Below are positions 3,512 through 12,682 of a DNA stretch of 23,602 bases, in pieces (within the stretch, counting starts at the first letter, position 1; the number at the start of each line of letters is the position of its first letter). The notes under the pieces are model-generated. The model worked only from the letters and a program-made list of their open reading frames with translations, searched no databases and was not told where the DNA came from. A program made the translations under genes and the position numbers. Location of the stretch: the IMG/VR virus record IMGVR_UViG_3300048587_001106, positions 1-23,602 of that record, one strand, 5' to 3'. The DNA comes from a virus.

Positions 3512-3813
3512 CAGCAGGACCTCCACACGCCGTCGGTGAGGTAGCCGTGCCAGTGCGGTTCACCCTTGGTGGCGAGGGCGACCGATTCACGCACCGAAGG
3601 TTTCTCACGACTGCCGTTCCACCATTTCCATGCGCCTACGCCGGAGACCACGACTCGGCCGATCTCGCGACAGCCGCATGGGCATTGGAAGTGGAAACCC
3701 GCCGGCGTGTGATCCTGTGTCGAATAGAACTTGATCGATCCCGCCGGCGAGTCAGATGCAACCACGTTGTCGACGAGAACGGCCGTGACTGGTTGTGTCC
3801 TGACCTCGGCCAT
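3511..3813 (-). CDS. DUF6527-like protein, 100 aa
   Basis: A 100-residue protein with features of DUF6527, a family of unknown function common in prophages: a central GFHFQCPCGC cluster (C44, C46, C48), a WKWWNGSREKPSV segment (62-74), and a C-terminal HWHGYLTDGVW motif (H87, H89). The three Cys and two His suggest a bound metal ion. I start it at ATG 3813, which overlaps the stop of the holin-like gene as ATGA; the frame is open further upstream but that part lies inside the holin gene. Its stop overlaps the i-spanin start in the same way. A conserved place among lysis genes hints at a link with lysis, unproven. Confidence 0.82.
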   Translation of the reverse strand: MAEVRTQPVTAVLVDNVVASDSPAGSIKFYSTQDHTPAGFHFQCPCGCREIGRVVVSGVGAWKWWNGSREKPSVRESVALATKGEPHWHGYLTDGVWRSC

Positions 3814-4025
3814 CACAGGTCGTCCGCCCTGCGCCGCCGCAGGTACTCCGTGAGAAGTCCATTGACGACGAGGAAGTAGGGGAACGCCTCGCTCGGGATC
3901 AGCGGCTGGAGCACCGCCGGTTCGACATAGGTTACGACGGCCGCGAGGACGCCGAGCAGCGTCTGCGCGCGAGCCCAGAAGATGGTCTCGCTGTCCTTGA
4001 AGAACGACTTGATCCTGCTCCACAT
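3813..4025 (-). CDS. Putative holin, 70 aa
   Basis: A 70-residue protein with one clear membrane helix (about residues 17-37, FWARAQTLLGVLAAVVTYV), a second, weaker hydrophobic stretch (about 45-60), and a positively charged C-terminus (YLRRRRADDL). Size, topology and position right after the endolysin fit a holin, the protein that opens the inner membrane at a set time. AAGGA lies seven bases before ATG 4025. No family-specific motif is visible, so the call depends on context. Its stop overlaps the next start as ATGA. Confidence 0.62.
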   Translation of the reverse strand: MWSRIKSFFKDSETIFWARAQTLLGVLAAVVTYVEPAVLQPLIPSEAFPYFLVVNGLLTEYLRRRRADDL

Positions 4026-4037
4026 GAGCGTTTCCTT

Positions 4038-4913
4038 TCAGCACCAAAGACCGACGAGATCGCAGGGCAGGGCCGTCAGCCATGCCCATAAGGCGTAGAG
4101 GCTCACGAGGATGAGCGCGCCGATGAGGCCGAAGATGCCCTTCGATTTCGGCTTCGCGGCGGTCACATCCTTCGACGGCTCGGTTGCCGGCTTGGACGGC
4201 TGGGGCTCCGGGGCAGGCGCTGGCGCCGGCGCAGCGGGCGCCTCCGGAGCCGGTATCGGGGTTGGAGCTGGAGCAGGCGCAGGGTTGGCCGTTGCCGAGT
4301 AGCCGGCCGCCATGAGAGCCGAATAGAAGGCGCGGTGATAGCCGGCGACGTCTTCGTCCGTCCCGTCCTCCCCGTTCACGATCCGGCGCGGGTTATTCTT
4401 CGGCAGGGCATTGAGCGCGGCCGGGAACTTGTAGTCGGCCAGCTTCCTGCTCCGAAACATGCCCTCAGCCATGCCGACGACGGCGATGTCGGCACCGATC
4501 TTCGGGTCCAGCGCCAAAGAGGGATTCTTGCGGAGCGGGACGCCGAGCCGCTTGCCCATCTTCTCGTAGTTGTCCCAATGCGTGATCTGGATCGGGCCGC
4601 GGCCGAAGCCTCCGTCACGCCAGTAGGGCTCCTTCACCCACGGGAGTTTGCCGGCCTTCCATGCGCGCTCGAGGCGGCGGATCGTCTCGTCGTCGCTGTC
4701 GGCGAAGGTTTCACGGACCGGCACCATGCGGCCGCCGGTCTCGCGGTAGACCTGGGCCAACACGTTGGATACGTGGTGAGGATCGGTGACACTGTTGCGG
4801 ACACAGGAATCGAGGAGAGCTTCGACGCCTTGCACCTGGCCGGTGCTGAGGCTGGTGCCAAAGACGCCGGAGCCGCGCGCACGCAGCGCGGCGAAGAACT
4901 TCGCGCGATCCAT
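4038..4913 (-). CDS. GH19-type endolysin with C-terminal membrane anchor
   Basis: A 291-residue cell-wall hydrolase. Residues 1-205 match the chitinase-like glycoside hydrolase 19 fold seen in many phage endolysins: VYRETGGRM with candidate catalytic E58, and GRGPIQITHWDNY (residues 105-116), a hallmark of the family. It probably cuts the glycan chain of peptidoglycan. Residues 209-245 form a Pro/Ala linker rich in PAP repeats, then a polar stretch, then a membrane helix at about 258-279 and a short tail ending in Cys. There is no N-terminal signal. A C-terminal anchor is unusual for a soluble endolysin. A weak AAAGG site precedes ATG 4913. The holin-like gene follows 12 bases later. Confidence 0.88.
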   Translation of the reverse strand: MDRAKFFAALRARGSGVFGTSLSTGQVQGVEALLDSCVRNSVTDPHHVSNVLAQVYRETGGRMVPVRETFADSDDETIRRLERAWKAGKLPWVKEPYWRDGGFGRGPIQITHWDNYEKMGKRLGVPLRKNPSLALDPKIGADIAVVGMAEGMFRSRKLADYKFPAALNALPKNNPRRIVNGEDGTDEDVAGYHRAFYSALMAAGYSATANPAPAPAPTPIPAPEAPAAPAPAPAPEPQPSKPATEPSKDVTAAKPKSKGIFGLIGALILVSLYALWAWLTALPCDLVGLWC

Positions 4914-6771: not shown

Positions 6772-9717
6772 TCAGCCAAACTCGTATCTCGGCCGGCCAT
6801 CAAGGTTCGTCTGCCGAGAGCGCATCAGTTGGAAGTCGAGCTTGTGCATGAGTTTCCGTATGATCTCGTCGGAATTTCCACCGCTGATACTGATGTGGTT
6901 CGTGATGCTGATCCCGCCGCCTTTCCCTAGGGCGTGGTTGGGTGTGATCGTACCGCTGCTGCCGGGCGAGAAGATCTCGGGGCCTTCCTCACCGACGAGA
7001 TAGTTCATACCTCGGGATACAGGACCGCCGCCGGCGCGCGGGCCGCCGAACTTGGACAGGCCGGGCGTCGGCGCGGCGGCGCCGCCGCCGGTGATACCGC
7101 CGAGCATGGCGCGCAGTGTGCTTGCCTTCCGTATAGCGGCGTCGATGTAGGATGAATTCACGACAGGAGTAGCCTCAATGCTGAGGTTCTCCTGCACTTT
7201 CTGTCCTGCTGCCTGGCTCTCATTGACCAGCCTGTTGAAGATCGCCACGCCTTCGGCCGTAGTCGGCAATTCCCACATCGGATTGACGGCCTTCGGCTGC
7301 CAGTTCGACTTGCCGGAACGCTGCGCGTCATCAGGGCCGTCCGGCACAAACCGGCTCCGCGCCGCGAGGTTCTTCCGGCGCGTTTCCTCCATCCAGTCGG
7401 CGAGGGCGCTGTTCCGCTGCTTCGGCGGTTTGGTGTGCCAGACCCCGCCCTCGTAATCCTTGAGCAGGTACATGAGGCCGCCGAGCAGTGCGCCACCGCC
7501 GAGGATGCCGAGCCCGAAGCCCTTCCCCTTGCCGACGCCGAGAAGCCGACCGAGCAGCCCGCCGCCGGCGGCCGCCGCACCCTTGCCGCCACCGCCGCCG
7601 GCGAGGCCCAGCAGCGCGCCGAGTACCGACGCGCCGGCCTTTGCTCCCGACAAGGCAAGCAACGCGCCTGCCATGCTGCGGATCGCGGCGGCGGCCATGC
7701 CGATGCCGGCGGCCGCCACGACAAATCCTGCACCGTAACCCCACATCTGGCCCGCAAACTCACCGAACGCCTTGCCAGCATCGCTGTTGAGGAAGTCGAT
7801 GAGCGGCTGCATCGCTCCGGAGAAGGCCGATGCCTGCTCTGCGAGGTACTTCACGGCCGAGGCCATGTTGCTGAAGGCGGTGCCGACGCCCTCGATGAAG
7901 CCCTGCATGCCTTTCGTGTTATATAGGCGCAGGATCGCATCGACGATGCTGTTGATGCCTTCGGCTGTGCCGCTGCCGATCCCGGCGAAGAATTTCGACC
8001 AGCTCGCGTCGAACTTGATTGACTCGCCGGAGAACGCAGCCTTGAGCCGTTCGAAGGCGCTCGCCGCACCGTCGAGAATCTGAGGGTCTAGCTTGTCGAG
8101 GAAGCCGCTAGCGAAGGCCGTCAGCGACCGAGTGACGAAATCCCAGTTGTGATACGCCAGCGCGCCGAGCGCGCCGGCGACGATCGTCAGCGGGTTTGCC
8201 ATGAAGGCGAGGGAGGAGGCGACGCCGGAAATGGCCAGCCCCAGCGGAGCCATGGCGGCGAGCGCGAGAGCCGCGTAGCCCGAGAAGCGCAGAATATCGG
8301 GATTGGTATCGGCGAGGTCGGTTATGGCGTCGGCCAGCTTGTTGAATCCGGTGGTGGCCTGCTCAAGGAGCCCCGACTTGCCGAACGCGATGGACATCGC
8401 CTCGATGGACGCGGTGAACTGGTTCCAGGCCTTCACGATGCCCTGCATCATGATCTCGCGCATCTTGCGCGCAGTGCCGATCGCCTCGCCTTCGGTGGCG
8501 TCGAGGTAGTGCTTCAGGATGTCGAGATCAATCGCCTGCATCTTGGATGCGTGGTGCAGGCCGAAGATCGCGGCGTAGTCGGCGACGCCGGCACCCTTGT
8601 CACGAAGCGCCTTGAGGACGCCATAGAGGTCGATCTCTGAGACGCCGGCGGTGAGCGCGCTCTGGATCGTGTCCGCGATGAGCGTGCGGTCCTGACCTGT
8701 GGTGCCACCGAGCTCGGCACCGAAGGCGTCGATGATGGCGTTGGCCAGCTTCGCCGGCGATTTCCTCAGCCGAGGATTCGCGATCAGCCGAGCGAGTTCG
8801 GCCTCTATGCCCTCGGCGGAAAAACCGGCCGCCTCCAGCGCTGCGGCAACGGTGTCGCCGGTCGCGTTGCCCATCTTCTTGCCGACGAAGTCTTCCGGAT
8901 TAATGCCGAGTCGGGCGAACGCTTCGCGCGCCTTTGGGCTCGGCGCGGCCACGCGCACCGGAGCCGCGCGCAATCCCGTGCCGGCGGAAGATCCGTATAT
9001 GCCGGCCTTGGCAAGAGCGATCTGCCAGGCCATCGTTTCGCCCGGCTTCATCCCGATGGCGGCGGCGACCGGGTTGAAGTATTTGCCGGAAGTCGTGAAA
9101 TCCTCCAGCGTAGCGCCGGCGGTTTCCTTCATCGCATAGGCGAACAGATCGGCCATGCGAATGGACGATTTCATCGTCGCATTCATGTCCTCCATCGCCA
9201 TCTTCTGTGCGACCATGGCGTTCACGATCGCGGTCGAGGCCTGCGAGATCGGCACATCCATCGCCTGCGCGGTATCGAGGATGCCGTTCAGGGAGCCGAT
9301 GGTCTGCTCATAGGAGAGGCCGGACCTCAGAATTTCGTTAGCGCCCTCGACGATCTCGCTCGCAGTCGCCGCGTAGTCGTAGTTCAGCTTGACCGCATGC
9401 TTCAGCAAATTGCTTCTCTGCTGAAGGCTGAGGTCGCCAGCGGCCTGTCCCTTGTTCAGGTTCTTCTCAAGGTCGTAGACGCTGCGCGCCACCTGCGCCA
9501 GCCCGATGGAAAGACCGGCCGACATGGCGGTCATGTCCGTCACGCGCCGGCGCATGTCGCGTGCCATCGTTCCGAGGGCGCGGGATGGCAACATGGCCAT
9601 CGATGTGAAGCCGACGACGGTCTTGTTCAGCGCACCAAGCGACGCGGAGATCGCCCGACCAGGCCCGCTGACCTGATCGACCAGCCGCATGATCAGGCGG
9701 GCTTCTTTACTTGCCAC
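6772..9717 (-). CDS. T: Tail tape measure protein
   Basis: At 981 residues this is the largest protein here, in the range of P2 gpT (about 815). Tape measure proteins set tail length and leave through the tube at infection. The N-terminus (LIMRLVDQVSGPGRAI, then repeated helices) matches the P2-type family. Long Ala-rich helices fill residues 80-450, and hydrophobic stretches lie near 470-515 and 650-760, the second with long Gly/Ala runs, probably membrane-interacting. The C-terminal region has the NYLVGEEGPEIFSPG motif common in tape measures. The GTG start at 9717 has AGG eight bases upstream and overlaps the end of the E' frame by 11 bases. Its length predicts a tail of roughly 130-150 nm by the usual 1.5 A per residue rule. 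Confidence 0.93.
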   Translation of the reverse strand: MASKEARLIMRLVDQVSGPGRAISASLGALNKTVVGFTSMAMLPSRALGTMARDMRRRVTDMTAMSAGLSIGLAQVARSVYDLEKNLNKGQAAGDLSLQQRSNLLKHAVKLNYDYAATASEIVEGANEILRSGLSYEQTIGSLNGILDTAQAMDVPISQASTAIVNAMVAQKMAMEDMNATMKSSIRMADLFAYAMKETAGATLEDFTTSGKYFNPVAAAIGMKPGETMAWQIALAKAGIYGSSAGTGLRAAPVRVAAPSPKAREAFARLGINPEDFVGKKMGNATGDTVAAALEAAGFSAEGIEAELARLIANPRLRKSPAKLANAIIDAFGAELGGTTGQDRTLIADTIQSALTAGVSEIDLYGVLKALRDKGAGVADYAAIFGLHHASKMQAIDLDILKHYLDATEGEAIGTARKMREIMMQGIVKAWNQFTASIEAMSIAFGKSGLLEQATTGFNKLADAITDLADTNPDILRFSGYAALALAAMAPLGLAISGVASSLAFMANPLTIVAGALGALAYHNWDFVTRSLTAFASGFLDKLDPQILDGAASAFERLKAAFSGESIKFDASWSKFFAGIGSGTAEGINSIVDAILRLYNTKGMQGFIEGVGTAFSNMASAVKYLAEQASAFSGAMQPLIDFLNSDAGKAFGEFAGQMWGYGAGFVVAAAGIGMAAAAIRSMAGALLALSGAKAGASVLGALLGLAGGGGGKGAAAAGGGLLGRLLGVGKGKGFGLGILGGGALLGGLMYLLKDYEGGVWHTKPPKQRNSALADWMEETRRKNLAARSRFVPDGPDDAQRSGKSNWQPKAVNPMWELPTTAEGVAIFNRLVNESQAAGQKVQENLSIEATPVVNSSYIDAAIRKASTLRAMLGGITGGGAAAPTPGLSKFGGPRAGGGPVSRGMNYLVGEEGPEIFSPGSSGTITPNHALGKGGGISITNHISISGGNSDEIIRKLMHKLDFQLMRSRQTNLDGRPRYEFG

Positions 9718-10338
9718 CGAAGAGACCTTTCACGAGACCGTTGACGCGCATCTTCTCGCGGTGCTGAAAGATCTTGCAGGCCTGCGGATACCAGACCTTC
9801 AGGAGCTCATGGAACTCCATATCCATCAGCGTTTCGTACGAGAAATTGAGCTCCGCCGCGACCATGGCGGAGTATTCCGGGAACTCTAGGAAGTGCTCGC
9901 CCCAGATTCGGATGTCTCGGATGTGTCCGAGGATTCTGTCGGTTCCGCCGCCAGCTCCGCCGCCTTCGCCAGCATCTTCTCCGGCAAAAAAGCGTAGGTC
10001 GCCGCCACCGCCTCCGCGTAGTCTTCGGCGTCGAGCGCCTGTATCACGGCAATCGGGATACCGGACATGCAGTGCAGGACAATATCGTCATCGTCGTGCT
10101 TGCCCCGCAATGCCTGCATCGTCCGAAACGCCTTGCCGCGCAGACGGCCGACGGTGATCTCCCTGTATTCGACACCGTCATACTCAAGCGGCCACTGAAG
10201 CGGGATCGTCTTGGAGCCGGCTTCCCGCAGAAAGCGGGGAGGGGCCTTCGGCGCCATGGTCTCAGCCGCTCCCGGCTGCTCGCCAATCGGCTTGCCGTTC
10301 GCGTCGAGCTTCACGGCCTTGATTACCTTATCAGCCAT
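9707..10338 (-). CDS. E': Tail assembly chaperone E-E', -1 frameshift product (210 aa)
   Basis: This entry describes the fusion made by a -1 ribosomal frameshift in gene E. Reading follows E from ATG 10338 through codon 118 (TTG, 9987-9985), slips back one base and continues GCC from 9985 to TAA 9709-9707, adding 92 residues. The -1 frame has no stop and becomes clearly coding (RIWGEHFLEFPEY, then ETLMDMEFHELLKVWYP, ending GLFGGK). In P2 an equivalent E+E' protein is made by -1 slippage at the same heptamer, and by analogy with lambda gpG/gpGT the extension contacts the tape measure protein. The junction is not visible to ordinary gene calling. Confidence 0.85.
9886..10338 (-). CDS. E: Tail assembly chaperone E (unshifted product, 150 aa)
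   Basis: The unshifted 150-residue protein belongs to the P2 gpE/TAC family of tail assembly chaperones, which coat the tape measure before tube assembly and are absent from the virion. The core (residues 43-120) holds PLEYDGVEYREITVGRLRG, the usual strand-loop-strand of this family, then helices. The C-terminal 20 residues are Ser/Thr/Glu-rich. I start at ATG 10338, preceded by GAGGGG at six bases; an upstream in-frame start at 10395 would lie inside the tube gene. It ends at TAG 9888-9886, past the slippery site. Confidence 0.9.
   Translation of the reverse strand: MADKVIKAVKLDANGKPIGEQPGAAETMAPKAPPRFLREAGSKTIPLQWPLEYDGVEYREITVGRLRGKAFRTMQALRGKHDDDDIVLHCMSGIPIAVIQALDAEDYAEAVAATYAFLPEKMLAKAAELAAEPTESSDTSETSESGASTS
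9985..9991 (-). other. Slippery heptamer T_TTT_TTG for programmed -1 frameshift
   Basis: On the minus strand the heptamer TTTTTTG (9991-9985) sits in gene E in the correct phase: the last T of an Ala codon, then TTT and TTG. It has the X_XXY_YYZ form and is the same heptamer used by P2 gene E. The -1 frame is open for 92 codons beyond it. I see no strong downstream stem by eye. Confidence 0.85.
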
Positions 10339-10348
10339 GCTCGCCCCC

Positions 10349-10858
10349 TCAGTAGCCAAGAGCCTGGTTGATGCCTGCGAGCTCGTCGACACCATTGACT
10401 ATGCGCTTCGGAGGCCAAGCCTGAATCTCATGGATCAGGTCAGACCCCGCCTCGTAGCGATAGTAGATGATGCCGTTGAGGATGAACTGGAGACCGGACT
10501 GTTCTCCCCGCTTCCACTCGTCGCGGGACCCGAAGTTCGGACAGCCTTCGACAATGCCGATGTGGGTGACGTAGCCGCCCGAAGGTTCGTCGAGCACGGC
10601 GCCGCGGAAAGTGACCCTGCTGGTGCGGCCAGGCCCCTTTGCCATGAGTTTCATGATATCCGGGCTGTGACCCAGCATCTTTACCGTGGCCTCAAGCGCT
10701 TCCAGCGCGGCCATCGGCTGGTTAACACCGAGGTCCATGCCGCCGCCCCGGTATTCCTGAGTGAGCGGCGTTGGGTTCGGAAGCTCGATGGTGTCGGTGT
10801 CGTAGCCAAAGTCGCTACCACCAATGGACATGGTGAAGCCCTGCAGAATATGGCGCAT
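10349..10858 (-). CDS. FII: Major tail tube protein FII
   Basis: A 169-residue P2 FII-family tube protein, matching the P2 length of about 172. Stacked hexameric rings of it form the inner tube driven into the cell. Visible family features are an early YDTDTIELPNPTP segment (19-31), the Gly-rich EYRGGGMDLGV (35-45), the helix MAALEALEATVKMLGHSP (49-66) and RVTFRGAVLDE (about 80-90). AGGAG precedes ATG 10858 by nine bases. It lies 36 bases after the sheath stop and ten bases before the E start. Confidence 0.93.
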   Translation of the reverse strand: MRHILQGFTMSIGGSDFGYDTDTIELPNPTPLTQEYRGGGMDLGVNQPMAALEALEATVKMLGHSPDIMKLMAKGPGRTSRVTFRGAVLDEPSGGYVTHIGIVEGCPNFGSRDEWKRGEQSGLQFILNGIIYYRYEAGSDLIHEIQAWPPKRIVNGVDELAGINQALGY

Positions 10859-10894: not shown

Positions 10895-12682
10895 TTAGAC
10901 GTTGCGGCCAGCGAGGCGCGCGATCTCGCGAACCGCCTGGTCTGCGAGGACTTCGTAGTAGCCAGTGTTCCGGCTGAAGACGAAGGTGATGTGCTCGATC
11001 GGGGCCGGGGCCTCGGCGTCGTAGCTCACGTACAGGTGGCCGGCAGCCCAGGTCTCCTTCGTATTGAGCTGTGGATCGAGCCACACACGGCCGCCGAGCG
11101 TGGCTCCTAGACGCCGCCACCGCCGCAGGGCGCTGTTCACCGTCTCGGCGATGTCGAGAAGTGCTTGGAGGCTGAACGGCTTGCCGACAAACGGTTCGTG
11201 CGCAATCTCGACGGAGTCGATGATCGTGTTGTGCGAGCGGCGCACCGACCAGAATACCTGCAAGGGATCAGCCGAGGCGCCGCGAAGGCCCCAGAACTTG
11301 AAGCCGCCGGACGGCGAGCGGACAATGGCCGCGACGCCATTCTTGTTGAGGTACTGCGACTCCACGGAAGGGTCGTTCAGCGAGTGCTCTACATCGCGGG
11401 AGGTGCCGATAATCCCCTCGACAACATGGTTCGAGCAGGAGAACCAGAACCCCTCCTCGTAATCGACGCGCGCCTGAAGACCGGCGATACGGGCGGACGC
11501 CGGGATGCTCGTGGGTGCGTTGTTCTTCCAGACCTTCGCGAACGGATCGACGATCAGCAGGTTCGGATCGTCGAAGTCGAGGCGGAACTGCACCGCTGCC
11601 GAAGGCGTCGTGTTCGGGCCATCCACGACAACGCCAGCACGGAAGCGCTTCGCCAGCGAGAGCAGTTCGGCGACGACGGGATTCGCAACGACGCCAAGGG
11701 AGACCGTCGCGGCCGCGCCCGAACCGTCCCCGGTGAATACGACAGAAGGAGCGTCGTAGCCGCCCGACAGCGTGGCGCCTGAAACTGTTGCGCCGGCGAC
11801 CGTGGTTGCCACCGTGATCGCGTTGCCGGCGGCTCCCGCGCTCGCGGCCTGCAACTGCAACTCGGTTGCGGTCGCTGTGTAGTCGACGGAGGAAAGGCCT
11901 GCATCGACCGAACCGTTGAGCATGGAGGCCAGCGCCGTGAGTGTGGCGGCGAGATCCACGCCGATGTTCACCTGAGGCCCGGTGGCCCCGCTGGTCTTGA
12001 ACGTGACGGCGGTGCCCGCGATCGTCACCGTGGTCTCCGCCACGGGGTTGCTGGCGAAGGTGATCTTGCCGGAAGCCTTGTAGGCAGCCTCCGAATAACC
12101 TGCGCCCGGGTTGGTGACGACAATCTCGTCCACCTCGCCGTCTTCATTGATCGTGCAGATAGCGGTCGCGCCAGCGCCGCCGCCGCCCACGATTTCAAGG
12201 GTAGGCGCCACGGAGTATTCCGAGCCGGCGTTGCTGATGGCGATGGACGCCACGCCATCCGTCGGCCGGGTGCTGGTGTAACCGGGCGCAATAAGCAGCT
12301 TCGGGGTCAGATTGTGCTGGCTCTTGGCCTTGCGCAACGCGTGCATGCCCGTCTTCAGCAAGGAGCTGCCGATGATGTTGCCCATGGTCTCGGCAAGGTT
12401 CGCGCCTTCCGCCACCCGGACCGCGAGAATCGTCTGCGAGGCCCGGGTCGCCTGATCGAAGATGCCGTCGAACATATCGGCGCCGGTGCCGGTCGAACCG
12501 AGCCCTCCGGGAAGGCCTTGATAGCCGAGGACCGGCACGACGGTATTCAGCGGCCAGATAGCCGGATCGGCGTTCGGCGCAGTGAAAACGCCGCCGATGA
12601 TTCCGGTGTCGATGGTCTGGACAGGGCGCGGCCCGCTGTTCTTCTCGATGGTCTCGATACCGTGAAGGTAGATGTCGGTCAT
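10895..12682 (-). CDS. FI: Tail sheath protein FI with a large internal insertion
   Basis: The contractile sheath subunit, 595 residues against about 396 in P2. Residues 1-140 match the N-terminal half (LHGIETIEKNSGPRPV, then a TPKLLIAPGYTSTRP strand at 126-140), and residues about 334-595 match the C-terminal half (RIAGLQARVDYEEGFWFSCSN, FKFWGLRGASADPL, LYVSYDAEAPAP). Between them, residues 141-333 are extra: a beta-rich, Gly/Ala/Thr-rich block with NAGSEYSVAPT and NPGAGY motifs, interrupted at about 201-308 by a second unit (VTIAGTAVTFKTSGATGPQV). Both resemble repeats found in other phage structural proteins. The insert is probably an exposed decoration on the sheath. A terminator lies just upstream; GAGGA precedes ATG 12682. 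Confidence 0.93.
   Translation of the reverse strand: MTDIYLHGIETIEKNSGPRPVQTIDTGIIGGVFTAPNADPAIWPLNTVVPVLGYQGLPGGLGSTGTGADMFDGIFDQATRASQTILAVRVAEGANLAETMGNIIGSSLLKTGMHALRKAKSQHNLTPKLLIAPGYTSTRPTDGVASIAISNAGSEYSVAPTLEIVGGGGAGATAICTINEDGEVDEIVVTNPGAGYSEAAYKASGKITFASNPVAETTVTIAGTAVTFKTSGATGPQVNIGVDLAATLTALASMLNGSVDAGLSSVDYTATATELQLQAASAGAAGNAITVATTVAGATVSGATLSGGYDAPSVVFTGDGSGAAATVSLGVVANPVVAELLSLAKRFRAGVVVDGPNTTPSAAVQFRLDFDDPNLLIVDPFAKVWKNNAPTSIPASARIAGLQARVDYEEGFWFSCSNHVVEGIIGTSRDVEHSLNDPSVESQYLNKNGVAAIVRSPSGGFKFWGLRGASADPLQVFWSVRRSHNTIIDSVEIAHEPFVGKPFSLQALLDIAETVNSALRRWRRLGATLGGRVWLDPQLNTKETWAAGHLYVSYDAEAPAPIEHITFVFSRNTGYYEVLADQAVREIARLAGRNV

Follow-up and report, generated by a model that had tools for sequence, protein, structure and literature searches.

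A very probable P2-type −1 frameshift yielding an E–E′ tail chaperone fusion in a divergent alphaproteobacterial phage lineage

The viral DNA analysed here, the 23,602 nucleotides of IMG/VR record IMGVR_UViG_3300048587_001106 (hereafter the window), very likely encodes an E–E′ tail chaperone fusion made by a −1 frameshift of the P2 E/E′ type, because the slip site and open frame are conserved, the extension shows codon bias, dN is lower than dS, E′ is homologous to that of P2, and a separate E′ has no conserved start. The comparative evidence is strong: 26 relatives keep the arrangement and place the site at the same residue. A programmed −1 frameshift had been proposed from the sequence of the window, and that reading is supported by the homology of E and E′, the placing of the site, the order of the genes, the overlap with the tape-measure gene, the coding signature and the conservation seen in 27 sequences. 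The case is a well-supported and unexceptional example of the P2-type E/E′ frameshift, found in a divergent lineage. It would extend the P2 mechanism to a distant alphaproteobacterial group and brings to light an E′ gene that is missed when the single sequence is scanned against protein families.

The tail genes are on the minus strand in the order sheath, tube, E, E′, tape measure, which matches FI, FII, E and T of P2 in a gene comparison. The sheath gene, the FI homologue, occupies 10895..12682 (PF04984, 3.8e-13; PHROG 23, 4.1e-84) and the tube gene, the FII homologue, 10349..10858 (PF04985, 1.6e-22). E–E′ lies between the tube gene and the tape-measure gene, the T homologue, which runs over 6772..9717 from a GTG start at 9717 (PhageMin_Tail, 2.5e-22; TIGR01760, 6.8e-19). 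Gene E (9886..10338) encodes a putative tail assembly chaperone of 150 residues, including the unshifted C-terminal tail. Its product matches PHROG 166 (tail protein) and, over residues 44–118, PF10109 Phage_TAC_7, the tail chaperone family that takes its name from P2 E (1.6e-9; 38.1 bits against a cut-off of 25), and the PF10109 match stops at residue 118, which is the slip site. The E′ extension (9707..9985), recognized from its reading frame, its relatives, P2 homology and dN/dS, consists of 92 codons in the −1 frame and a TAA stop at 9709–9707, as the original prediction had it. This stop lies 11 nt inside the tape-measure gene (overlap 9707..9717). The single-coding part of E′ (9710..9888), delimited by codon score and hhalign, carries a conserved domain resembling P2 GpE.

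The slippery heptamer T_TTT_TTG (9991–9985), in the E codons Phe117–Leu118, is identified by its sequence, its phase and its aligned position in the 27 sequences. The codons around it read TAC GCT TTT TTG CCG, so the correct phase claimed for it holds. Eleven in-phase X_XXY_YYZ sites occur in the genes of the window, among which the E heptamer alone has a U-only core. In the window, 26 of 209 Phe residues are encoded by TTT and 38 of 531 Leu residues by TTG; with the protein sequence and the preceding T held fixed, TTTTTTG arises in 152 of 20,000 resampling draws (0.76%). The heptamers listed as most efficient in E. coli do not include T_TTT_TTG (PMC4066793). In the window, RNA folding 3′ of the site is not significant (z −0.6 to −0.9), and no consistent downstream fold emerges across the loci, although some T_TTT_TTC relatives, unlike the window, reach z −2 to −3 within the first 50 nt. 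Upstream of the site, no consistent stimulatory Shine-Dalgarno motif is seen by eye.

The E′ frame is clearly coding beyond the E stop, as had been claimed. Scored against the codon usage of the window itself, it gives 0.57 bits/codon, while the other two frames give −0.53 and −0.54; true genes score 0.41 ± 0.17 bits/codon. The first half of the extension had been described as Gly-rich, which applies to residues 1–15 (8 of 15 are Gly), within the dual-coding stretch, and not to the remainder of that half. In the Gly-rich stretch frame 0 outscores the E′ frame (0.76 versus 0.19 bits/codon), and since frame 0 dominates the codon signal there, the Ala and Glu codons of E probably account for the Gly run. 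The linkers of the relatives in this region are unrelated to that of the window.

A DNA similarity search of phage records gave no match, and E or E′ alone as query retrieved only two contigs, which are identical and belong to the same virus. With the neighbouring tube protein and its profile as bait, 26 further distinct loci were collected, some on viral contigs and the others in genomes of Rhizobiales and further Alphaproteobacteria; one locus (L045) was left out because its downstream sequence is too short. The comparison set thus comprises 27 sequences, the window and 26 loci of related prophages and viruses, most of them alphaproteobacterial. The E/E′ architecture is present in genomes of Ensifer, Brucella, Rhizobium, Roseibium, Devosia, Pseudovibrio and others (L015–L025), and is also kept in the IMG/VR contigs. 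In all 26 relatives, as in the window, the −1 frame reads through the position of the E stop and on for at least 32 codons, and in the alignment of E a Phe-Leu/Phe/Met pair occupies the same column in all 27 sequences. The site is T_TTT_TTC in 12 sequences, T_TTT_TTG in six (the window included), T_TTT_ATG in four, C_CCT_TTC and T_TTT_CTG in two each, and T_TTT_CTT in one. The NNT_TTT codon pair is uncommon in most loci, at 0.3–6% in the majority and higher where TTT is used more. After the slip, the E′ of the relatives measures 58 to 108 residues, so the 92 residues of the window are long yet inside the family range.

At the site in seven of the 27 sequences (L016, L027, L029, L023, L046, L047 and L048), the canonical in-phase heptamer is absent and T_TTT remains; E′ is nevertheless conserved in all seven. 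The T_TTT_ATG group (L023, L046, L047 and L048) is monophyletic on the tube tree, and the two T_TTT_CTG cases need two changes on it, many branches of this tree being weak. Directly before TTT in the T_TTT_ATG group is an AAGGA Shine-Dalgarno-like motif (AAG GAT TTT ATG). More distant loci have T_TTT_CGT, T_TTT_CAG or T_TTC_AAG at the apparently equivalent place, judged by eye from unaligned sequences. Sharma et al. reported that U_UUC and U_UUU tetramers, which occur in IS elements, direct −1 shifts in E. coli, about tenfold more weakly than the best heptamers (PMC4066793). Since these tetramers shift in E. coli, slippage of tRNA-Phe on T_TTT would be the simplest reading for the relatives that lack the heptamer. 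The seven T_TTT-only sequences resemble the U_UUN tetramers of IS elements, although the latter are known from transposase genes and laboratory constructs, where the tRNA on the tetramer is described as occupying the A site (PMC4066793). The chances are even that several lineages of this alphaproteobacterial P2-like clade have lost the tandem heptamer and shift on T_TTT (U_UUU) with tRNA-Phe alone; if so, identical types of E/E′ protein would be made by different slip mechanisms. The natural series of sites, tandem heptamers versus bare T_TTT, could provide a direct test of the minimal slippery sequence for a tail chaperone.

Alignment of the E′ proteins reveals a common core of approximately W..V..(F/W)....L..M.F.EL..W..A, in which the L position is L or I. 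With hhalign, the E′ family profile matches P2 E′ with a probability of 94% (E 1.2e-7, 36 columns), the alignment covering E′ residues 36–72. PF06528 Phage_P2_GpE matches eight of the 27 members; one match above its curated cut-off of 23 was seen, that of L023 (28.8 bits). The E′ of the window itself has no match in Pfam, even at E 10. The AlphaFold model of E′ is helical with moderate confidence (pLDDT 67), and a fold search with it gave no significant match. Purifying selection on E′ in relatives, which the original prediction had offered as a check, is seen past the E stop as dN lower than dS in every within-group pair, for example 0.13 versus 0.92 for L024/L025 and 0.09 versus 0.55 for L018/L040. 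Because pairwise comparisons with the window itself approach saturation, we infer selection on its own E′ from the E′ family.

An open frame of this kind could be a chance overlap in which E′ is unexpressed. Synonymous resampling leaves the −1 frame of the E tail open in about 41% of cases, and dinucleotide shuffling leaves the 59 codons beyond the E stop open in 11.5%. Such a frame would arise by chance about 5% of the time under simple nulls in GC-rich DNA; alone, openness is weak evidence. The codon bias, dN lower than dS, the homology to P2 E′ and the arrangement in 26 relatives all contradict a chance overlap, which is the least credible of the readings and can practically be dismissed. 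Transcriptional slippage on the run of six Ts at the site, in place of ribosomal slippage, could also yield an E–E′ product. Six Ts are short for polymerase slippage, however, and relatives with the same architecture have a run of just four (T_TTT_CTG or T_TTT_ATG), while the site keeps one phase with respect to the E codons, a condition of ribosomal slippage; polymerase slippage is accordingly most improbable.

Scarcely more probable is an independently initiated small E′ protein, which ribosomes might translate by re-initiating once they have passed the E stop; conservation of E′ solely as such a reading frame, with its own ribosome site, had been named in advance as the contrary outcome. 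The window does have an ATG in the E′ frame, 23 nt past the E stop, that would give a protein of 52 residues, but no Shine-Dalgarno-like motif precedes it. Among the relatives, neither a conserved start nor a conserved Shine-Dalgarno motif for a separate E′ is found; their E′ starts are missing or elsewhere, and L016 and L030 have none ahead of the conserved domain. Moreover, traced upstream, the E′ frame meets no stop before the slip site in any of the 27 sequences, a constraint that separate translation would not impose. A −1 ribosomal frameshift remains the favoured reading.

Under a −1 frameshift, the majority of ribosomes would translate E through to its own stop, while a minority, positioned on T_TTT_TTG with P-site tRNA-Phe and A-site tRNA-Leu, would slip back one base and continue through E′ to give an E–E′ fusion of 210 residues. 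By analogy with P2 and lambda, we infer that the E portion provides the contact with the tape-measure protein, that E′, a small helical domain, brings in the tail tube protein, and that the ratio of E to E–E′, set by the slip, aids tail assembly.

Frameshifting of this kind has reportedly been known since the description of genes E and E+E′ of P2 by Christie et al. in 2002. The facts on P2 used here were drawn from GenBank record AF063097 and from papers that cite that study. The tail frameshift is documented in P2 and in many long-tailed phages (PMC5009743, PMC3931495), and in the chaperone model for lambda and P2 the tape measure is covered by the short form and joined to tube subunits by the long form (PMC5009743). 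That P2 E shares both heptamer and architecture with the window, as originally asserted, agrees with the P2 record, the gene order and the homology of the E′ domain: T_TTT_TTG is identical in the two, it occupies the slot between tube FII and tape measure T, and E′ ends just inside the tape-measure gene, by 8 nt in P2 and 11 here. The two differ in the length of E (91 residues in P2, 150 here), in the distance from the slip to the E stop (25 nt versus 103 nt), and in the variable linker that lies ahead of the conserved E′ domain here. The earlier comparison of 92 residues with about 51 mixed two quantities, since after the slip 57 residues are added in P2 and 92 here, for a net gain of 51 and 60, respectively. 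Smp131 and the xanthomonad P2-like prophages have the P2-type order and a T-run slippery site, which is T7G or T7C in them and T6G here (PMC3931495). Lambda G/GT likewise has a −1 slip near the end of the chaperone gene, before the tape-measure gene (PMC5009743), with a different heptamer and no reported sequence homology. The alphaproteobacterial relatives differ from the window in the A site, which is TTC, CTG, CTT or ATG in place of TTG, or have C_CCT_TTC.

An in-phase T_TTT_TTT with an open, E′-like −1 frame is also present in two phage records. In Ochrobactrum phage POA1180 (L107) it lies at 3855–4070, the E′ being unannotated, and in Wolbachia phage WO (L109) at 3622–3810, in a record where gpG and gpGT are entered as separate genes. 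Elsewhere in the window, two overlapping small genes on the minus strand (3526–3245 and 3260–3042) resemble an Rz/Rz1 spanin pair, a membrane protein followed by a lipoprotein-like one; the candidate pair has no match in Pfam, and a GH19-type endolysin gene (4913–4038) adjoins it. A SRAP gene of the SOS response associated peptidase family (PF02586, 5.3e-60) is located at 1361–2083 on the plus strand, opposite to and beside the lysis and tail genes.
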